From positions 1 through 33,592 of the forward strand of contig JAQULR010000010.1 in the NCBI GenBank assembly GCA_028749205.1: a DNA stretch of 33,592 nucleotides. Direction: 5' to 3'. The position numbers and the translations under genes were made by a program. This document shows, piece after piece, positions 7,837-18,165 of the stretch. Under the pieces are notes generated by a model. It did not search any database and was not told where the DNA came from. It saw only the letters and a program-made list of their open reading frames with translations. This DNA comes from Acidobacteriota bacterium. Its GTDB lineage: Bacteria > Acidobacteriota > Aminicenantia > Aminicenantales > Saccharicenantaceae. The first letter of the stretch is position 1. The number at the start of each line of letters is the position of its first letter.

Positions 7837-10800
7837 TCAGTCATTAATATCAATTATTCCGGGAACCTCAGGGGGAGATAATCCTATAGACTTTATTGAC
7901 TGATTAAATCCTTCCAGGTCATTCTTAATAAACCTGTTAAGGTCTTCTGTCGAAGAGATAATCTGTCTGGCAATTTCTTCTATCTGCTGCAACTCTGTGG
8001 CCGTGGGTTGAGATGGGAAAGAAGCAATACCCTGAATGAGCATTAATAGTTGAATATTTAAGGGACCTCTTAAGGATTTTTCGTATGGCATATTAAGGCC
8101 TGTTAAAGTCCCTTCAGTTTGGAAAATTTCTGAGAGCCGATTGAATTTAATTAAAAGCTCCTTATAGTTTGATTCTAGATCTGACTTTGTCTTTGGATCT
8201 GTTATAGTGCCAATATTATTTCGAGCAAATTCAAGACTTTTAATTATATTCCTGGTTGTGGCCACAGCCTTAGCATAAATGTTATTAATTCTTACCAGTT
8301 CAGCTAAAGGCTCATATTGCTTCTTCAGACTTTCCGGGTCAATCTTGAATCTCGGGTCTGGAGAAACTCTTATCAATGTTTGGTGTTCCTTATCATTGAT
8401 TTTAACTGAAGCCAGGTAATCATCGGGAATAACATTACTCATGATATTAACGAGGCCAACTGGGGTTCTCTTTTTGCCTTGACTGGATGGAGGAAGAAAT
8501 TGTAAATTCCAAATAGTCCGGCTAAAACCAGCTTTTTTGTTCAGAGGAAGTTCCATTATATTCTCTCCGGCTGAGTTAACAATGATAATCCGGAGGTCTC
8601 CGGAGAGGTCGCCTTTTTTAAAATAAGTAATATTAGCTCCCGTGGATGGATTTTTACCTCTGAAGATGGCTCCAGTATAGGGATCGCCTTTAACTGCCAT
8701 ATATAGCTGGTTAGCTTCTCTGGAGATAAACAAATGGAACTCTGAGTTAAGAATATCCTCATTTAATTCACTGAGAAAGACAATATCGTCTAGGACCCAG
8801 ATTCCACGTCCATGAGTGCCAATAATAAGATCATTTTCTTGAGGATGAATAGCAATGTCGTGAACCGAGACGGTAGGTAGATTTGTACCGCTAATTTCAA
8901 TCCAATATAACCCAGAGTTATAAGAAACATATATTCCAAATTCAGTTCCAACAAATAGTAAATTATCGTTAGCAGGATGTTCTCTTATAACATGAATCCA
9001 GCCTAAATCAGGAAGATTAGACCTGATAGATTTCCAAGTTCGGCCAAAATCGGTAGTCTTGTAGACATACGGAGAATAATCATCAGTTCTATGATTATCG
9101 AAAGAAACATAAGCTGTAGCTTCATTAAAATGAGAGGGTTCGATTCTTGAACACCAGGAATTTTTGGGAAGATGTGGGATATTCTCGGTAAGATTGAACC
9201 ATTTTTTCCCTCCATCTCGAGATAATTGAATATTTCCATCGTCAGTCCCACACCAGAAAATCCCGGGTTTGACTGGTGATTCAGCAATCGCGGTAATTGT
9301 ACAGTGGATTTCTGCTCCACTGTTTTCAATAGTTATAGGGCCAACTCCATCGATTTTCTTTTCAGGATCATTAGTGGTCAGGTCCGGGCTTATTTTTTCC
9401 CAGCTATAGCCTCCATCAACTGAGCGAAAAAGATAATTTCCTCCGCAATAAATTGTTTGGTTATCGTGAGGAGAAATCAACAGCGGAGCATTCCAATTAA
9501 AGCGGTATGGGGGCTCGTTTAGGGAAGCTACAGGTTTAATACCCTTTCCCAAACCATGTCTAAGATCTTTTTTAACCAGGCCATTATTCTGAGAACTGGT
9601 ATAGACAATGAAATTTTCCTTTGGATCTGGCCTGACAAAGAATCCATCACCTCCGTTAATAAACTCCCAGTGTTCATTTAGGATTCCTCGACTATCGAGA
9701 GAATTAGATAGGCCTCCCCAGCAACCATTGTCCTGAAGCCCGCAATAAACCCTGTAAGGGGTGCTGAAATCATAACCAATCTGATAAACTTCAGCCGCAT
9801 CTATACTGGTCACCGGCATCCAGGTCTTTCCTCCATCGTAAGTGATATCTATTCCCCCATCATTGCCGTCTATTAAATGAAGCGGGTTGTCTGGGTCAAT
9901 CCATAGAGCATGATGGTCAGGATGGATCCCCTGTCCAATGGCCTGAAATTTTTGCCCCATGTTCTTAGAAACATAAAGCCCGGTTGATTGGACGTATATG
10001 GTCTGGTCATCATGTGGATCAACATAGATATGGCTATAATAAAAAGGCCGGTTGTTGACGTTTTTACAGGTTTGACTATCACAGGTCCTTTTCCAGGTTT
10101 GACCGTGGTCTTCTGACCTCCAGATGCCCGCCTCTTGATGTTCGATAAGAGCATAAACTACTCCTGGCTTATTTCTGGCTACCGCCAGCCCTATTCTACC
10201 CATTATTCCTTCAGGAAGATCACGTTTTAACTTCTCCCAGCTCAGTCCCCCATCTGATGATTTATAAACTCCACTTCCCGGCCCTCCACTAACCATATGG
10301 TAAGGTTTCCGCCGATGTTCATAGGCAGCCGCATAGAGTATCTGAGAATCTCCAGGGTCAACTTCCAGGTCGCAGATGCCGGTATCAGCATTTATATAAA
10401 GCACTTTTTGCCATGTTTTACCTCCGTCAATTGTCTTGAATACTCCCCTTTCGGTGTTAGGCCCCCAGAGATGGCCCAGGGCTGCTACATAAACAATGTT
10501 GGGGTCTCCCCTGCTGATTATAATCCTGCTTATATGCCTGGTTTCTTTTAGCCCCATGTTGGTCCAGGTTTTTCCTCCATCAATCGATTTGTAAACGCCG
10601 TCTCCTATGGTTACAGAATTACGGCTGGAGGCTTCACCGCTACCAACCCAAACTATCTCTGGTGAGGATTGAGCCACTGCCACCGCCCCCACAGACACTG
10701 TGGCTTCGCGGTAGAACACCGGAAACCAGCTGATACCGTTGTTTTCTGATTTCCACAGCCCGCTAGGGCCAACCGCAGCGTAGATAACCCAGGGTTCATT

Positions 10801-11016
10801 CTCTACCACTGCTAGATCCACTGTCCGGCCTCCGGGCAAAGCCGGGCCTATATTTCTCCAGGTTATGAAGCTGTTAAGATGTTCAGATATTTTGTTTTGA
10901 TTTTGAGCGTATCCTATTGATAATAAATTAATTAAAATAACAAAAAAAAATATCCCAATGATGATTACTGGTCGACCAAAGAAGAAATATTGGCCAGGCT
11001 GGTTTTCATTATTCAT
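7837..11016 (-). CDS. Exported BNR/VPS10 (sortilin-like) repeat protein
   Basis: About 1059 residues starting at ATG 11016, chosen over an upstream ATG at 11058 because AGGAG sits just before it. The N-terminus has a hydrophobic segment (VIIIGIFFFVILINLLSIGYA) that acts as a signal peptide. At least ten Asp-box-type repeats of the form S-x-D-x-G-x-x-W are visible (SIDGGKTW, TIDGGKTW, SSDGGLSW, SEDHGQTW, TYDGGKTW, SVDGGYSW, SRDGGKKW, TTDFGRTW and degenerate copies), indicating one or two large beta-propellers. A C-terminal beta-sandwich-like region follows (near ITYFKKGDLSGDLRI), then a helical tail. Such proteins are often annotated glycosyl hydrolase, but the repeats do not define a reaction. 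It probably acts as a periplasmic or surface binding scaffold. Neighbours give no firm role. Confidence 0.85.
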   Translation of the reverse strand: MNNENQPGQYFFFGRPVIIIGIFFFVILINLLSIGYAQNQNKISEHLNSFITWRNIGPALPGGRTVDLAVVENEPWVIYAAVGPSGLWKSENNGISWFPVFYREATVSVGAVAVAQSSPEIVWVGSGEASSRNSVTIGDGVYKSIDGGKTWTNMGLKETRHISRIIISRGDPNIVYVAALGHLWGPNTERGVFKTIDGGKTWQKVLYINADTGICDLEVDPGDSQILYAAAYEHRRKPYHMVSGGPGSGVYKSSDGGLSWEKLKRDLPEGIMGRIGLAVARNKPGVVYALIEHQEAGIWRSEDHGQTWKRTCDSQTCKNVNNRPFYYSHIYVDPHDDQTIYVQSTGLYVSKNMGQKFQAIGQGIHPDHHALWIDPDNPLHLIDGNDGGIDITYDGGKTWMPVTSIDAAEVYQIGYDFSTPYRVYCGLQDNGCWGGLSNSLDSRGILNEHWEFINGGDGFFVRPDPKENFIVYTSSQNNGLVKKDLRHGLGKGIKPVASLNEPPYRFNWNAPLLISPHDNQTIYCGGNYLFRSVDGGYSWEKISPDLTTNDPEKKIDGVGPITIENSGAEIHCTITAIAESPVKPGIFWCGTDDGNIQLSRDGGKKWFNLTENIPHLPKNSWCSRIEPSHFNEATAYVSFDNHRTDDYSPYVYKTTDFGRTWKSIRSNLPDLGWIHVIREHPANDNLLFVGTEFGIYVSYNSGLYWIEISGTNLPTVSVHDIAIHPQENDLIIGTHGRGIWVLDDIVFLSELNEDILNSEFHLFISREANQLYMAVKGDPYTGAIFRGKNPSTGANITYFKKGDLSGDLRIIIVNSAGENIMELPLNKKAGFSRTIWNLQFLPPSSQGKKRTPVGLVNIMSNVIPDDYLASVKINDKEHQTLIRVSPDPRFKIDPESLKKQYEPLAELVRINNIYAKAVATTRNIIKSLEFARNNIGTITDPKTKSDLESNYKELLIKFNRLSEIFQTEGTLTGLNMPYEKSLRGPLNIQLLMLIQGIASFPSQPTATELQQIEEIARQIISSTEDLNRFIKNDLEGFNQSIKSIGLSPPEVPGIIDIND

Positions 11017-11251
11017 TTTATTCTCCTGTTTTTGTTGTTTACTTTTATATATCTTCATTATAAGATAGCGAAGTTAAAATAAAAATAAATATAAGATAAG
11101 AAAAATAAGACGCTGGAGCAGAAAAGACCCGAAGAATTCTGGTTGAACGTAATCATATAAAATCCCTTTTTTTGATGCTTCTGCCGTTATGATTAATGGT
11201 AAATTTATCAATTAAATAGAGGTTTTTTTGATCGATAAAAAAGGAGGAGGC

Positions 11252-13294
11252 ATGTCCAGATTAAAATTGATTAGGGTATTTAGTCTATTAATTTTGAGCT
11301 TTTTTATTTTTTCTGTACCTCTTTTCTGTGGGCAGACGGCTAATTACCAATCCCAGGCTGAAATAGGGCAAAGCCTAAAAAAATTAGCCGGGAAATACCC
11401 AAATTTATGCCAACTATCTTCAATCGGGAAATCGCATGGAGGGCTGGATATTTACCTCCTGGAAATTGCTGGTAGCAGAAATAAAATTAAACCCGAAGAT
11501 CGGCAATCAGTTCTGGTAGTGGCTAATTCCGAAGGAGTTCATCTGCCAGGGACTGAAGCTGCTTTAGGCTTGGCTGAAACTATACTCTCCGCTTATGGGA
11601 AGGATAATTACTGGACCGATTTTCTAAATAAGAGAACTATTTATATCATCCCCCTTCTCAATCCTGAGGCAGCCTCAGCTTATTTTTCCTCTCCCAGGGT
11701 GGAAAGAACCTATAATGGCCGTCCAGTTGATGAAGATAATGATGGTTTGATTGATGAAGACGGCCCGGAAGATTTAAATGCTGACGGTCTGATAACCATG
11801 ATGAGAGTAAAATCGCCTGAAGGCCGCTGGATTGCTGATCCACAAGAACCACGGTTGATGAGACTGGCTGACCCTAAAAAAGGAGAAAAAGGTGAATATC
11901 TGCTTTATATTGAAGGCTATGATAATGATAGCGATGGAGAGATTAATGAAGACGGTCCTGGTGGAGTAGAAATCAACAGGAATTTTCCTCATGATTTTGA
12001 ATATTATAATAAGCGGTCTGGGCTTTATCCAGCTTCTGAGCCAGAAACACAGGCTATTCTCAAGTTTATGTTCGACCACAACAACCTAGCTGCAGTCATC
12101 AATTTTTCCACCGAAAATAATCTTCTTAATATGCAACAAACAGGGAGGGCCAGAGCCGGGGCTGATAGAGTCAGAGTGCCCAGACGGTATGCCACTTTTC
12201 TCGGTCTTGAACCAGATGCTGACTACAGCCTGAGAGAAATAGCCGAGGCGATGAAAAGTTCCGGAATGGTCGGAGAGGTGGAAATTGACGAAAATCTGGT
12301 TGCTACTTTTCTGGGTTTAGGTCCAGCCATGACTTTAGACCGTTCTGACCAGGCTATCTACCTGGAGTTTCAGAAAGAATACAGAGACGGCTTAAAAGAG
12401 GCTGGGCTTGATTATCTGGAAAAGAGAGCTCGGGGCGTCGGTCGCGGCTCCTTCTCTGCTTTTTGCTATTACCAGTATGGAGTGCCGGTGTTTTCTTTTG
12501 ATCTGTGGCAGATTCCTGAGCTAAAGGGCGAGAAAAAAGAGAGTTTGACCTCGGACAGAATAAAATCTATGTCTTCTGATGAGTTTCTGGCCATGGGAGA
12601 AGAAAAAATAGCTGCCTTTCTCAAAGAACAGGGGGCTCCTCCAAATCTCACGGCCGGGATGGTGATAAAAATGTTTCAGTCCGGCCAGATGACCCCGGCC
12701 AGAATGGCCGAAATGCTGGAAAAGATGCCTGGGGCTGTCGGGGGGATAGAAAAAGATAATCCTGAGGCTTATCTTTTGAACTATTCAGACACTGTTCTTA
12801 AAGGAAAAGGCTTCGTAGACTGGAAAGCCTTTAACCATCCGGATTTGGGTCAGGTTGAAATAGGTGGCTTTATCCCCCATCTTAAGCAAGTCCCTCCGAC
12901 CGACCAGCTTAAAAACAGTCTTGAATTTCATATCCAGTTCAGCCAGAAACTAATGCAGAAATTACCAGTTCTGTCTGTCAAAGAGACCAAGACTGAAAAG
13001 CTCGGGACAGGACTTTATCGGGTAACCATCTACCTTCAGAATGAAGGCTGGTTGCCAACCTCTTTAGCTCAAGGACGACGGTCCCTGGCCGCTTATCCCA
13101 TAAGAGCTAGCTTGAAACTAAGTGAGCAACAAAAGCTTTTTGCTGGAAGCCCGGTCGAGATGATTCCTGTCCTTCAGGCTGGCGAAAGCCAGAAACTGCA
13201 ATGGACTGTTCAGGCTAAAAAGGGCTCCAATCTCGAAGTGAAAATCTGGAGTAACAGGATTAATCCTGTAGCAGTTCTGATTAACCTTGATTAG
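11252..13294 (+). CDS. Secreted M14-family (zinc carboxypeptidase-like) protein with altered active site
   Basis: 680 residues from ATG 11252, chosen because GGAGGAGG lies directly before it; an upstream TTG at 11228 lacks this. It has an N-terminal signal peptide and an M14-like fold clearly paralogous to the next gene. The metal site is changed: where the partner has H-G-N-E, this protein has E94-G-V-H97 (positions swapped); the third His is replaced by Ser286 (NFSTE); the catalytic Glu position appears as Asp417 (FSFDLW). The carboxylate-binding-type Asn242-Arg243 (NRNF) remains. Two acidic inserts (160-172 and 224-236) have the pattern D-x-D-x-D-G-x-x-x-E-D-G-P, suggesting calcium binding. 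It is probably a pseudopeptidase or has a rearranged metal site. It is ten bases ahead of the intact M14 gene. Confidence 0.85.
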   Translation: MSRLKLIRVFSLLILSFFIFSVPLFCGQTANYQSQAEIGQSLKKLAGKYPNLCQLSSIGKSHGGLDIYLLEIAGSRNKIKPEDRQSVLVVANSEGVHLPGTEAALGLAETILSAYGKDNYWTDFLNKRTIYIIPLLNPEAASAYFSSPRVERTYNGRPVDEDNDGLIDEDGPEDLNADGLITMMRVKSPEGRWIADPQEPRLMRLADPKKGEKGEYLLYIEGYDNDSDGEINEDGPGGVEINRNFPHDFEYYNKRSGLYPASEPETQAILKFMFDHNNLAAVINFSTENNLLNMQQTGRARAGADRVRVPRRYATFLGLEPDADYSLREIAEAMKSSGMVGEVEIDENLVATFLGLGPAMTLDRSDQAIYLEFQKEYRDGLKEAGLDYLEKRARGVGRGSFSAFCYYQYGVPVFSFDLWQIPELKGEKKESLTSDRIKSMSSDEFLAMGEEKIAAFLKEQGAPPNLTAGMVIKMFQSGQMTPARMAEMLEKMPGAVGGIEKDNPEAYLLNYSDTVLKGKGFVDWKAFNHPDLGQVEIGGFIPHLKQVPPTDQLKNSLEFHIQFSQKLMQKLPVLSVKETKTEKLGTGLYRVTIYLQNEGWLPTSLAQGRRSLAAYPIRASLKLSEQQKLFAGSPVEMIPVLQAGESQKLQWTVQAKKGSNLEVKIWSNRINPVAVLINLD

Positions 13295-13304
13295 GAGAGA
13301 GATT

Positions 13305-15089
13305 ATGAATAAGACTATAAAAATTATCAGTCTAATTTTCATCATATTAGCTACGACGAGTTCAGGTCTGATCTTGGCAGCTCAGGGTGGGAAAGCTAAA
13401 CCAGAAATCAAACTTAGTTTTGACCATTTTTATGACCAGGCCGAGTTAACTTCCGCCTTAAAACAGCTTCAGGCTGCTTACCCGGAGCTGATGGAGCTAA
13501 TTTCCATTGGGAAATCTTATCAAGGGCGGGATATTTGGGCAGCAATCATCAACAATAAGGCAACAGGCCCGGCCGAAAGAAAACCTGGTTTTTATATCGA
13601 TGGAAATATTCACGGCAATGAAATCCAGGGTACTGAGGTAGCTCTCTACACGATTTATTATCTCCTAAAGAACTCCGGGAAACTGGAATTTGTCGACCGC
13701 CTACTCTCTGACCGGGCTTTTTACATTGTTCCCACCATGAATCCTGACAGCCGAGATTATTTCCTTCATTTAGCCAGCGATTCTAACTCGCCTCGTTCAG
13801 GCCTCGTACCATATGATGATGACCGGGACGGCTTAATGGATGAAGATGGGCCGGATGACCTTGATAAAGATGGCCATATAAGTTATATGCGAAAACGAGA
13901 CCCAAGAGGAAACTACCGGGTCAGCCCTGAGAATCCCATGGTCATGATACCCTGCCGGCCAGGAGAAAAGGGCGAATTTATCTTTCTCGGCTCTGAAGGT
14001 ATTGACAATGATGGAGACGGCCTGGTTAATGAAGACGGCCCTGGTGGATATGATATGAACCGAAACTTCGGCTTTAACTGGCAGCCTAACTATGTTCAGC
14101 GAGGTTCCGGGCCATACCCTTTTTCCTGGCCTGAGACCAAGGCTATAAGAGATTTTATCATGGGCCATCCAAATATCATGGGGGCCCAGACTTTCCATAA
14201 CTACGGTGGGATGATCCTCCGTGGCCCAGGAGCTAAGAATTTAGGCGAGACTCTGCCACCAGACCGGCAAGTTTATGATTTTATCGGAAAGAAAGGTGAG
14301 ATAATTCTTCCTGGTTATCGTTATATAGTTATCTATAAAGATATGTACACTGTCTACGGCGGGAGTCTGGACTTCTTTTACAACCTTCTCGGAATCTTCA
14401 CCTTTTCTAACGAACTGGATTTTGACCAGTATGTCGGGACGATGCCGGCCGAGCGGAGAAGGTCTTCAGAAGAGGATGAAGACTCCAGTGCCAGAAGAAG
14501 GTTTGGTCCTGTCGGCAACCTGGAGGAAATTATTTATCATCAACTGGTTTTAATGGGTGAGCAGTTAGTAGAGTGGAAGCCTTATAAGCACCCGCTTTAT
14601 GGTGATATTGAGATTGGTGGTGTCAAAAAAATGGGTCGCCGGGTACCGGCCCTGTTCAAGTTGGCTGAAACCTGCCACCGAAATGCTGCTTTTTGCCTCT
14701 ATCATGCCGACCAGCTTCCCAGGCTAAGCTTTGAGGAGGTTAAAGTAAAAAAACTGGCTAGTGGGCTTTTTCAGATTGATCTTACAGTCGGCAACCAGCA
14801 GGTTACTCCCTCAATCTCAGCTCTGGCTGTTCAGAAAAAATTGCACCGACCGGATTTTTTAAAGGTTAAAGGCAGAGCTAAAATTGTTTCAGCCGGGATT
14901 CTGACTGACCGCTTTCGAGAACTAACCGAGCCAGTAAAGGTTCGTCAGGACTATCTGATAGTAGAAAATGGCCTTCCTGGATTTAGCTATGTGGACCTTA
15001 GGCTACTTATTGAAGGGTCAGGTGATATTAATTTAATATATGATTCGCTTAAAGGGGGTTATCTGGAGAAAAAGATCAGCCTGAAATAG
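13305..15089 (+). CDS. Secreted M14-family zinc carboxypeptidase
   Basis: 594 residues from ATG 13305, with AGGAG six bases upstream; the stop of the preceding gene is at 13294, so the two form an operon. It has an N-terminal signal peptide (IISLIFIILATTSSGLILAAQ). Complete M14 machinery is visible: zinc ligands His103 and Glu106 in NIHGNEIQGTE, Asn252-Arg253 in MNRNF, third ligand His298 in TFHNYGG, and a candidate catalytic Glu370 in FSNELDF. Acidic inserts at 171-183 and 234-246 repeat the D-x-D-x-D-G-x-x-x-E-D-G-P pattern of the neighbour. It probably removes C-terminal residues from peptides outside the cytoplasm. The C-terminal 150 residues look like a beta-rich accessory domain. Confidence 0.9.
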   Translation: MNKTIKIISLIFIILATTSSGLILAAQGGKAKPEIKLSFDHFYDQAELTSALKQLQAAYPELMELISIGKSYQGRDIWAAIINNKATGPAERKPGFYIDGNIHGNEIQGTEVALYTIYYLLKNSGKLEFVDRLLSDRAFYIVPTMNPDSRDYFLHLASDSNSPRSGLVPYDDDRDGLMDEDGPDDLDKDGHISYMRKRDPRGNYRVSPENPMVMIPCRPGEKGEFIFLGSEGIDNDGDGLVNEDGPGGYDMNRNFGFNWQPNYVQRGSGPYPFSWPETKAIRDFIMGHPNIMGAQTFHNYGGMILRGPGAKNLGETLPPDRQVYDFIGKKGEIILPGYRYIVIYKDMYTVYGGSLDFFYNLLGIFTFSNELDFDQYVGTMPAERRRSSEEDEDSSARRRFGPVGNLEEIIYHQLVLMGEQLVEWKPYKHPLYGDIEIGGVKKMGRRVPALFKLAETCHRNAAFCLYHADQLPRLSFEEVKVKKLASGLFQIDLTVGNQQVTPSISALAVQKKLHRPDFLKVKGRAKIVSAGILTDRFRELTEPVKVRQDYLIVENGLPGFSYVDLRLLIEGSGDINLIYDSLKGGYLEKKISLK

Positions 15090-15203: not shown

Positions 15204-16538
15204 TTATTCACCACCAATCTGTAATGATTTTATCCGTAGAGTTGGAGCTGTTCGAGAACGGTTTAGATCCAGGTCATTACCCAGCATATCGATTCCATTA
15301 AGCATCTCGTCGGCCGTCCCGGCAATGGTAATGCCTTTGACTGGAAAGACAATTTTCCCATTTTCAATCCAAAGGCCCGACGCTCCCCCGCTGAAATTGC
15401 CATTGACCGGGTTAATTCCATAGCCAGTAACTTCTTTTACCAGCACTCCCCTTTCGGTGGCCGCTATAATTTCTTCCGGCTTCATTTTCCCAGCAGTTAT
15501 ATAGAAATTGTGCGGGCCTATTCCCGGCAGGCTGTTAAACCCTGAACGGGAAGCATTGCCGGTACTCTTGACCCCTGCCCGACTGGCTGCATAAGTGTTA
15601 TACAAGAAACCTTTTAGGACCCCATTTTCTACGATGATCCTTTTCTGAGTTGGGACCCCTTCTCCATCAAAAGGAGCACTGGACAGCCCTTTTTCCAGAG
15701 TTCCATCATCAATGATAGTTAGGTGTTCAGCAGCAATCTTTTGACCAAGCCTTTGGCCAAGAAAACTAGCTCCCTGGAGAACCCTCTCCCCATTGATGGC
15801 CTGGATTATTCCCCCCAATATAGAATAAGCTACATCTGGGTCAAAAATAACCGCGGCCCGCTGGGTTTTAATTGGTTGAGGATCTAACATTCTCAAAGCT
15901 TTCTCGGCTGCCTGGCTGGCAATTTCCTTAGCTGGTTTAAGGTCAGAAAAGAACCGCCTGGAACAGGATTCATAGCCGGTTGATTTTTGGTCACCCTTTT
16001 CGGCAATTACTCCCAAACCAAAGCCACAACCAGTATCTTTATAGTCTTTAAGCAGACCAAGAGAGTTAGCTATAATGATTTCCCCTTCTCCCTCACTATA
16101 ACTAGCTCCAGCGCTTTTAGCAATCCCTGGAACTTTCAAAGCTAAGGCTTCAACTTCTTTAACTAAGGCTATCTTTTTATCCATGGGGACTTTAGTTAAA
16201 CCAGAGTCATAAATTCCTTTTACCTGAGACATTCCAGGCTCATCAGGCAAAAGATTATTTTCGTCAGGGCTTAAAGCTTTGGCAAAATTCAAGGCCCGGT
16301 TAACAGTTTCTTCCAGACTTTCTGGCCGGAAATCATTGACATAGGCAAAACCAAGTTTTTTGTTAATAATTACCCTTAAGCCAAGGCCATAACTGCTGGC
16401 TTCTTGAATGCTTTCTACTTCGCCATTTCTGATTCTAAGGCTAAGATTTCGGCCACTAGTCAGAAAAGCTTCAGCCAGGTCTGCCCCTTTTTTCTGGCAA
16501 ATCTTGATAACCTGTTCAGCTATTGCTTTGTAATCCAT
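15204..16538 (-). CDS. tldE: TldE/PmbA-type subunit of the TldD/TldE protease
   Basis: 444 residues with the TldD/PmbA family fold: N-terminal domain containing LRIRNGEVESIQEASSYGLG and a C-terminal domain ending in glycine-rich strands (GYGINPVNGNFSGGASGLWI). There is no HExxxH metal motif, which marks it as TldE/PmbA rather than TldD. In characterised systems TldD and TldE form one heterodimeric metalloprotease that trims unfolded peptides, including microcin and antitoxin substrates. No signal peptide is visible. ATG 16538 is preceded by AAGGAGG. The upstream tldD ends 11 bases before it, indicating an operon. The absence of an export signal contrasts with its partner. Confidence 0.92.
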   Translation of the reverse strand: MDYKAIAEQVIKICQKKGADLAEAFLTSGRNLSLRIRNGEVESIQEASSYGLGLRVIINKKLGFAYVNDFRPESLEETVNRALNFAKALSPDENNLLPDEPGMSQVKGIYDSGLTKVPMDKKIALVKEVEALALKVPGIAKSAGASYSEGEGEIIIANSLGLLKDYKDTGCGFGLGVIAEKGDQKSTGYESCSRRFFSDLKPAKEIASQAAEKALRMLDPQPIKTQRAAVIFDPDVAYSILGGIIQAINGERVLQGASFLGQRLGQKIAAEHLTIIDDGTLEKGLSSAPFDGEGVPTQKRIIVENGVLKGFLYNTYAASRAGVKSTGNASRSGFNSLPGIGPHNFYITAGKMKPEEIIAATERGVLVKEVTGYGINPVNGNFSGGASGLWIENGKIVFPVKGITIAGTADEMLNGIDMLGNDLDLNRSRTAPTLRIKSLQIGGE

Positions 16539-16549
16539 GGTTTTCCTCC

Positions 16550-18076
16550 TTATCTTCTCTGCCTCGTCCCGCCTACGGTAATGCCTCTAATCCGAACAGT
16601 AGGCTGACCGGCGGTTACTTCAGCTGATTGTCCCTTACCGCAGATGCCTGGGCCAAAATCTAAGTCATCGCCAATCCCATCTATCCTGGTGATTATATCT
16701 AAGCAGTTTCCGATTAAAGTAGCTCCTTTGACCGGGACGGTTTTTTTGCCGTTCTCAATGAGATAAGCCTCTCGGCAAGTAAAGTTAAAAACCCCAGTGG
16801 TAGGGTTAACGCTGCCACCACTCAGGCTCTGGACATAAAGACCACTTTTGGTGGAAGCCACAATGTCAACAGGTTTATCTTTTCCTTTCTCAATAAAGGT
16901 ATTGGTCATTCTCGGTATGGGGTAATATCTGAAACTCTCTCGGCGACCGTTTCCAGTTCTTTCCATTTTGAGTTGCTTGGCGGAAAGAATATCGGTCATA
17001 TATTTAACCAAAAGGCCATCTTTAATAAGCACATTCCTTTTCATTTGAGTACCTTCATCATCAAAATCAGTTGTTCCACGGAAATTTGGTAAGCTACCAT
17101 CATCAACCATAGTAAAAATGTCAGCCGCCACCTTCTTTCCAAGTTTACCGACGAAAGCTCCCGTTTCCCTGGCAATGTTATCAGCTTCGAGAGGATGGCC
17201 GACAGCTTCATGAACCAGGACTCCTCCCCAGCCATTTTGAATGACCACATCCATCTTGCCAGCGGGAGCCTCTTTGGCTTCCAACATCGCTATAGATTCT
17301 CTGGCCGCCTCTCTGGCTGCTTGTTCTGGTGGAAATTTATCGAACATTTCGATTCCAGCATGCTGGCTGAGACGTTCTCTGCCCATATGAGAAGTGTTAT
17401 TACCTATGGCCAAAGGTTGCACTATGAAGAAAATGAGAGGCAAACTACTTTTAAGAAGCAAACCCTCGCTGTTGGCAATAAGCCGGTCTCTGATTTCATC
17501 ATAATAATCGATGCTAACCATTTTAATTCTGGGATCATAGCTCAAAGCTGCTTCTTCGGCCCTCTTCATTATTTCCATCCTTTTATCATCAGCTACTTTT
17601 TGAAGTGGAATTTTGACCTTAACATAAGAAGGCCTTTTTTCTTCTTTTAATTCCACGGGTTGAATTCTTTTCCCAGAACTGGCAATGATAGAAGCTACCT
17701 CGGCTGCTCTTATAATCTTTTCTTCCGTCAGCTCATCAGTGTAGGCATATCCAGTTTTATCTCCGTCAATAACCCTAACCCCAGCCCCGCGAATCAGGCC
17801 AAAAACCGCACTTTTGTACTTGCCCTCTTCCAGAATGATACTTCTCGTAATCCGATTCTCGACATATAGATCGGCAAAATCGCCGCCTCTTTTAAGGGCC
17901 GTAGAGATAGCTTTTTTCATCAAGTCATCTGATAACTGAAGCCTCTGCCCCTCGACACCTGCCAGTAGACTCTTTACTAAAAGTGGACTGGCAGCTATGG
18001 CCAAACTACCCTGAAGGCTCAGACTCAGAAACTTTCTTCTGTCAATCGGCTTAATTTCTGAGAAAAGTTCTTTCAT
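16550..18076 (-). CDS. tldD: TldD metalloprotease subunit with Tat signal
   Basis: 508 residues from ATG 18076, chosen over ATG 18106 because AAAGGAGG lies six bases before it. The active-site motif HEAVGH is at 289-294 and the conserved late cysteine is Cys479 in PGICGKGQ; in known TldD these regions bind the metal. The N-terminus reads IDRRKFLSLSL (twin arginine at 13-14) followed by an alanine-rich hydrophobic stretch ending near AASP, a clear Tat-type signal. Cytoplasmic TldD of enterobacteria lacks this. It is first gene of a tldD-tldE operon, with a possible promoter at 18166-18194. Export of only one partner raises the possibility of piggy-back Tat export of the folded heterodimer. Confidence 0.93.
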   Translation of the reverse strand: MKELFSEIKPIDRRKFLSLSLQGSLAIAASPLLVKSLLAGVEGQRLQLSDDLMKKAISTALKRGGDFADLYVENRITRSIILEEGKYKSAVFGLIRGAGVRVIDGDKTGYAYTDELTEEKIIRAAEVASIIASSGKRIQPVELKEEKRPSYVKVKIPLQKVADDKRMEIMKRAEEAALSYDPRIKMVSIDYYDEIRDRLIANSEGLLLKSSLPLIFFIVQPLAIGNNTSHMGRERLSQHAGIEMFDKFPPEQAAREAARESIAMLEAKEAPAGKMDVVIQNGWGGVLVHEAVGHPLEADNIARETGAFVGKLGKKVAADIFTMVDDGSLPNFRGTTDFDDEGTQMKRNVLIKDGLLVKYMTDILSAKQLKMERTGNGRRESFRYYPIPRMTNTFIEKGKDKPVDIVASTKSGLYVQSLSGGSVNPTTGVFNFTCREAYLIENGKKTVPVKGATLIGNCLDIITRIDGIGDDLDFGPGICGKGQSAEVTAGQPTVRIRGITVGGTRQRR

Positions 18077-18165
18077 AAAGGGCCTCCTTTGCTTATCTCT
18101 TTTCATTTATAAGTTATACAACCCATTTCAATTAAATCAGATCTTGGCATCTCTTTTCTTTAATC

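Follow-up and report, generated by a model that had tools for sequence, protein, structure and literature searches.

Introduction

M14 is among the largest and best studied metallopeptidase families, its Asn-Arg pair binds the C-terminal carboxylate, and most of its described pseudopeptidases are eukaryotic. Among other peptidases, TldD and TldE are known to form the TldD/E complex. Here we analyse two neighbouring M14 genes, named A and B, in a 33,592-nucleotide stretch of an Acidobacteriota genome (contig JAQULR010000010.1, positions 1 to 33,592), referred to as the window: gene A encodes an M14 pseudopeptidase that is retained across the phylum, and gene B, directly downstream, encodes a predicted intact M14 zinc carboxypeptidase.

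The described eukaryotic M14 pseudopeptidases are domain III of carboxypeptidase D (CPD-III), AEBP1, CPXM1/2 and Ecm14, all of which keep H69; CPD-III is fused to active M14 domains and is thought to present substrate (PMC11266112). These are non-catalytic M14 domains like A, but they are eukaryotic and carry other substitutions, whereas A has a gene of its own in a bacterium, paired with that of its active paralogue. The bacterial M16B alpha/beta operons likewise pair an inactive with an active paralogue, the two being conserved together, and the peptidase depends on its inactive subunit (PMC11266112). These operons and mitochondrial MPP resemble A/B in the pairing, but their fold and family (M16, HxxEH) are unrelated, and the heteromer is proven for M16B whereas for A and B we infer it. 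TldD/TldE (PmbA), again an active and an inactive paralogue side by side, belong to an unrelated family as well (PmbA_TldD domains, HExxxH). With the M14 carboxypeptidases T, A and M (PF00246, MEROPS M14) both proteins share the fold and B shares all catalytic residues, whereas A is without the zinc and catalytic residues. Additionally, the acidic DxDxDG insert and the C-terminal HPxLGxVEIGG region of A and B are absent from the matched part of PDB carboxypeptidases.

A review of metallo-pseudopeptidases names M14 cases from vertebrates and yeast but none from bacteria (PMC11266112), and no description of a bacterial M14 pseudopeptidase operon or heterodimer was found in the literature that we searched, a provisional result as most subscription papers lie outside its coverage. 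An M14 homologue without activity and the pairing of active and inactive paralogues are both of known kinds; their combination in a bacterial M14 appears to be new.

Results

The missing zinc site of protein A

The family was surveyed in 396 sampled genomes of the Acidobacteriota, the phylum covered by the systematic search, and most loci come from metagenome-assembled genomes (MAGs). The A-family alignment has 62 rows for 61 copies, one of which is split by stops, and some positions could be scored in 60. The genes and active-site positions of the window are listed below with the family counts.

11252..13294, + strand: gene A, M14 pseudopeptidase of 680 amino acids; a hydrophobic, signal-like segment at the N-terminus, an M14 domain bearing an acidic insert, and an HPxLGxVEIGG region at the C-terminus
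11531..11542, + strand: E94-G-V-H97 of A, replacing the H-x-x-E zinc ligands according to the alignments; E-x-x-H 30/60, H-x-x-E 0/60
11975..11992, + strand: N242-R243-N-F-P-H247 of A, Asn-Arg retained here; both residues in 29/61, H247 in 57/61
12107..12109, + strand: Ser286 of A, third zinc-ligand (His) position; Gly 40, Ser 19, Asp 2, His 0 of 61
12500..12508, + strand: Asp417 of A, catalytic-Glu position, with W419; Asp 42, Pro 16, Asn 2, Arg 1, Glu 0 of 61; W419 in 57/61
13293..13299, + strand: ribosome-binding site of gene B (aggagag), overlapping the stop codon of A; tight operon spacing
13305..15089, + strand: gene B, predicted intact secreted-type M14 zinc carboxypeptidase of 594 amino acids, from Pfam, alignment and family conservation
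13611..13622, + strand: H103-G-N-E106 of B, zinc ligands; 56/56 each
14058..14063, + strand: N252-R253 of B, substrate carboxylate binding; 57/57
14196..14198, + strand: His298 of B, third zinc ligand; 57/57
14412..14414, + strand: Glu370 of B, catalytic base; 55/56, the exception being a truncated copy

In Pfam both proteins match M14 only (PF00246, Peptidase_M14; 91.4 bits for A and 161.5 bits for B, cut-off 21.6), so they do not belong to M16B with its M16 fold and HxxEH motif, and PF00246 is matched by 25 of the 25 A-family members checked. Neither protein is covered by an NCBIfam model. The residues expected of an active M14 were the zinc ligands H69, E72 and H196 and the catalytic E270, and for B also R127/N144/R145 and Y248. 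At the first four of these positions A has E94, H97, S286 and D417, against H103, E106, H298 and E370 in B, all exactly at the positions given in the initial annotation, as is E288 of A. No copy of the A family has the canonical site: HxxE is present in 0/60, the third His in 0/61 and the catalytic Glu in 0/61, which excludes chance as the source of the observation. At position 94, 50/60 copies have Glu and none has His; at position 97, 33/60 have His and none has Glu.

The exchange of Glu and His in A is not an alignment slip, a source which we considered and excluded, because the A/B alignment is ungapped at the first two ligands and anchored by N92, G95, G100, T101 and E102; the phmmer match with human carboxypeptidase M, obtained independently ('ansEgvHlpgtea' on 'anMHGDETVGREL'), likewise pairs E94 with the His ligand and H97 with the Glu ligand. 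AlphaFold2 models of the single chains, of moderate confidence (predicted local distance difference test, pLDDT, 63 for A and 64 for B), place no other residues at the ligand positions of A: E94 and H97 lie in a strand-to-helix loop, S286 right after a strand ending at 285 and D417 right after a strand ending at 415, at places equivalent to the site residues of B. Foldseek matches the model of A to carboxypeptidase A1 (CPA1) and carboxypeptidase T (CPT) with probability 1.00, at a large root-mean-square deviation. Judged by its residues, protein A is unable to form a canonical zinc site, and with its fold retained, its catalytic residues lost and purifying selection acting on it (see below), it is an M14 pseudopeptidase by definition.

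The exchanged ligands and the kept Asn-Arg had both been pointed out in the initial annotation, and they hold for the window copy; as hallmarks of the family they do not. The E-x-x-H form occurs in 30/60 copies, in two deep subclades, and the remainder reads EGTV, EGxQ, SGxD and the like, while Asn and Arg are both intact in 29/61 copies, 26 of which also keep H97. Therefore, both features mark a subset, namely the Saccharicenans-like clade and, as a second and deep subtype, A' (EGDH / Gly / Pro-Gly-Trp), and the swap is a form of certain lineages, not a defining feature of the family. On a FastTree phylogeny three changes suffice to explain where H97 is present, and it is plausible that an EGxH state was ancestral and later lost in the EGTV clade.

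One would argue that the swap builds a new metal site from E94, H97 and nearby acids, so that A would be a metalloenzyme of altered chemistry, as the initial annotation had suggested from Glu288 close to the lost His. The E-x-x-H form in half of the copies and Glu288 in the window copy speak for it. However, H97 is missing in 27/60 copies, the Glu288 equivalent in 46/61 (it is kept in 15) and the third His in all 61, the catalytic Glu has become Asp, Pro, Asn or Arg, and no alternative set of His, Glu or Asp ligands is conserved across the family. We rejected this candidate as very improbable, because the swap and the Asn-Arg are each confined to about half of the copies.

The intact partner

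Protein B carries all the residues expected of an active M14, and H103, E106, H298, R164, N252, R253 and Y348 are invariant across its family. In a phmmer alignment H103, E106, H298 and E370 fall on the ligands and the catalytic Glu of carboxypeptidase T. N252-R253 correspond to N144/R145 of carboxypeptidase A. Leu355 of B is the equivalent of Ile255 of carboxypeptidase A, this position is mostly aliphatic across the B family, and from what is known of the family B presumably prefers hydrophobic C-terminal residues. These residues predict that B is a catalytically competent M14 zinc carboxypeptidase. The hydrophobic N-termini of both proteins suggest that A and B are secreted.

Linkage, co-inheritance and selection

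A gene of the A family is present in 56 of the 396 genomes, B-clade genes are present in 55 and both in 54; in the discordant genomes (G079, G090 and G017) the gene lies at a contig end. That the pseudopeptidase always adjoins an intact copy, as had been proposed, is borne out by all 56 A copies with a sequenced 3' flank, in which B follows directly on the same strand and in the same order; the remaining four A copies end at contig edges. A maximum-likelihood tree of 94 proteins puts A and A' on one side of a branch (Shimodaira-Hasegawa-like approximate likelihood ratio test, SH-aLRT, 98) and unites all B and B' copies (99), the subclades of the two sides mirroring each other. The mirror-tree correlation of A and B is r=0.891 against a maximum of 0.131 in 2000 permutations. 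In the five genomes where an A/B pair coexists with an A'/B' pair, every partner clusters with its own type, therefore the two genes move and duplicate together. By gene order and tree, A is inherited with B as one unit, and the two are adjacent, co-inherited inactive and active paralogues as in M16B alpha/beta and TldD/TldE.

Within the genus, pairwise ratios of non-synonymous to synonymous substitution rates (dN/dS) range from 0.08 to 0.10 in A and from 0.05 to 0.07 in B. Gene A is thus under strong purifying selection (about 0.09), though it evolves faster than B. The faster evolution, the lost active-site residues and in-frame stops in the A copies of two loci (L037 and L042) would fit a functionless duplicate in decay, but the low dN/dS, the retention across the phylum, the invariant acidic loops and the full length of A refute a local pseudogene, and we give this explanation practically no weight. 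The site loss is shared by the homologues and the window copy has no frameshift, so a swap seen only here beside frameshifts is not what we face. In-frame TAG codons interrupt A at L037 (genome G021), where the accompanying B is truncated just before the catalytic-Glu region; this pair may be decaying together, or these may be MAG errors. As most loci come from MAGs, the stops at L037 and L042 are possibly errors or decay.

The window genome is a Candidatus Saccharicenans-type Acidobacteriota of 2.1 Mb, 92% complete, with several further M14 genes, and a contig scan with a single-sequence query gave close relatives only, those with names being Candidatus Saccharicenans and other Acidobacteriota MAGs. 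Gene A had been called full length with a good start, and it is a complete open reading frame from an ATG at 11252, behind a strong Shine-Dalgarno sequence (aggagg, 11243-11248), to a TAG at 13292-13294. Ten bases separate this stop from the ATG of B at 13305, which opens another complete frame. Promoter and terminator scans gave chance level only. Gene A comes first in the operon and would be made before B, neither frame has a long N-terminal prodomain before the M14 domain, and the two genes constantly co-occur, so A could serve B specifically, by helping it to fold or by inhibiting it, like a prodomain supplied in trans. We regard this as improbable: A is a full-length M14 plus a C-terminal region and bigger than known pro-regions.

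Acidic loops and conserved pocket

Both proteins carry two acidic loops.

11729..11785, + strand: acidic loop 1 of A, D160..D178 (DEDNDGLIDEDGPEDLNAD), calcium-loop-like; D162, D164, E169 and D174 in 61/61, D168, D170 and D178 in 57-59/61
11921..11953, + strand: acidic loop 2 of A, D224..D234 (DNDSDGEINED); D224, D226, D228, E233 and D234 in 61/61
13815..13871, + strand: acidic loop 1 of B, D171..D189; D171, D173, D175, D179, D181 and D185 in 57/57, D189 Asp in 42 and Asn in 15
14004..14036, + strand: acidic loop 2 of B, D234..D244; D234, D236 and D238 in 57/57, E243 and D244 in 55/57

This DxDxDG insert is the strongest conservation in the A family, and its B counterparts are kept in 55-57 of 57 copies, D189 excepted. 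It resembles calcium-binding DxDxDG loops, which makes calcium a putative ligand of both proteins. Next in A come D366, G399 and Y406 (61/61), F245, H247, W419 and the C-terminal HP-x-LG-x-VEIGG.

Plasmid searches for relatives outside the phylum returned only one intact haloarchaeal M14 (Halomontanus, HATEL form, unpaired) and weak actinobacterial or Photobacterium matches, and a viral scan returned nothing. The haloarchaeal protein (L086:4959-6620, Halomontanus rarus plasmid) is a single M14 whose HATE site is intact and which has no pseudopeptidase beside it, and it shares the architecture, with a partial acidic loop and the HPxLGxVEIGG end. Because this loop is a partial DLDGDG version, the acidic loop is probably older than the A/B pair.

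The conserved F245, H247, W419 and D366 show that the pseudo-pocket of A is constrained, and about half of the copies keep Asn-Arg. Animal M14 pseudopeptidases act through binding (PMC11266112). Thus A could be a separate peptide- or cell-wall-binding protein in the pathway of B, co-expressed with it and delivering or sequestering substrate without a stable complex. We find this unlikely, though not negligible, as the strict adjacency and order, the phylum-wide co-occurrence and the acidic loops common with B favour a closer partnership.

Neighbouring genes and other M14 groups

Directly downstream of the M14 pair and convergent with it lies a PmbA/TldE-TldD pair (15204-18106, - strand), the larger gene of which has a HEAVGH motif, so that two active/inactive peptidase pairs adjoin in the window. 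This neighbourhood is kept in the genus and at L066 and L080. On the other side a Sortilin-Vps10/BNR beta-propeller protein of 1073 amino acids (7837-11058, - strand) adjoins the M14 pair. A Sortilin-type gene is adjacent to the pair in 9 loci of 5 families (including L046, L047, L054, L064 and L065), at some of them directly upstream on the same strand with open frames touching or overlapping. It was considered as a core third member and is kept as an association only, because such genes are multicopy, with about 7 in the window genome.

A separate group of single M14 genes (L058:2851-4851, L128:2925-4949, L129:3177-5144, L130:2826-4784, L133:2414-4768 and L134:2948-5110) keeps H-x-x-E (RHSGE/RHAGE) and the catalytic Glu, but the third His ligand is replaced by Asp and Asn144 by His (GLDLHRNYP); an H/E/D metal site is possible in this group.

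Discussion

Because genes A and B stay adjacent across the phylum and evolve together, A is probably a working partner of B and not a decayed gene. We favour, as fairly probable, the explanation that A and B each supply a dedicated half of a single carboxypeptidase, secreted or periplasmic, in which the dead A most likely binds B as a heteromer. Here B would be the catalytic zinc subunit, and A, an ancient dead paralogue, would stabilise B or would shape and feed its substrate cleft. Where Asn-Arg is retained, as in the sublineage of the window copy, A may also hold peptide C-termini in its empty pocket. A physical complex, in which A would serve substrate handling or stability, is the most likely arrangement, by likeness to the bacterial M16B operons and to TldD/TldE.

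Several points weigh against this explanation. The single-chain models are of moderate confidence and give no basis for judging an interface. Adjacency and mirrored trees also arise for enzymes of the same pathway that never touch, and the mirror-tree permutation keeps the shared species history, the genomes with two pairs being the sole further control. The active-site residues of A differ between subclades, therefore no single function of the pseudo-site is kept family-wide. For the stronger statement, that these are phylum-wide obligate heteromeric bacterial M14 carboxypeptidases in which the dead subunit is required for the function of the active paralogue, we see the chances as even.

Pfam labels both A and B as zinc carboxypeptidase, hence a match to the M14 family alone does not equal an active enzyme. 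A dead M14 kept beside a live one in a deep bacterial lineage would extend the 'dead partner' principle to the M14 fold, and the A/B pairs would offer simple two-gene systems for studying what a pseudopeptidase does for its partner.

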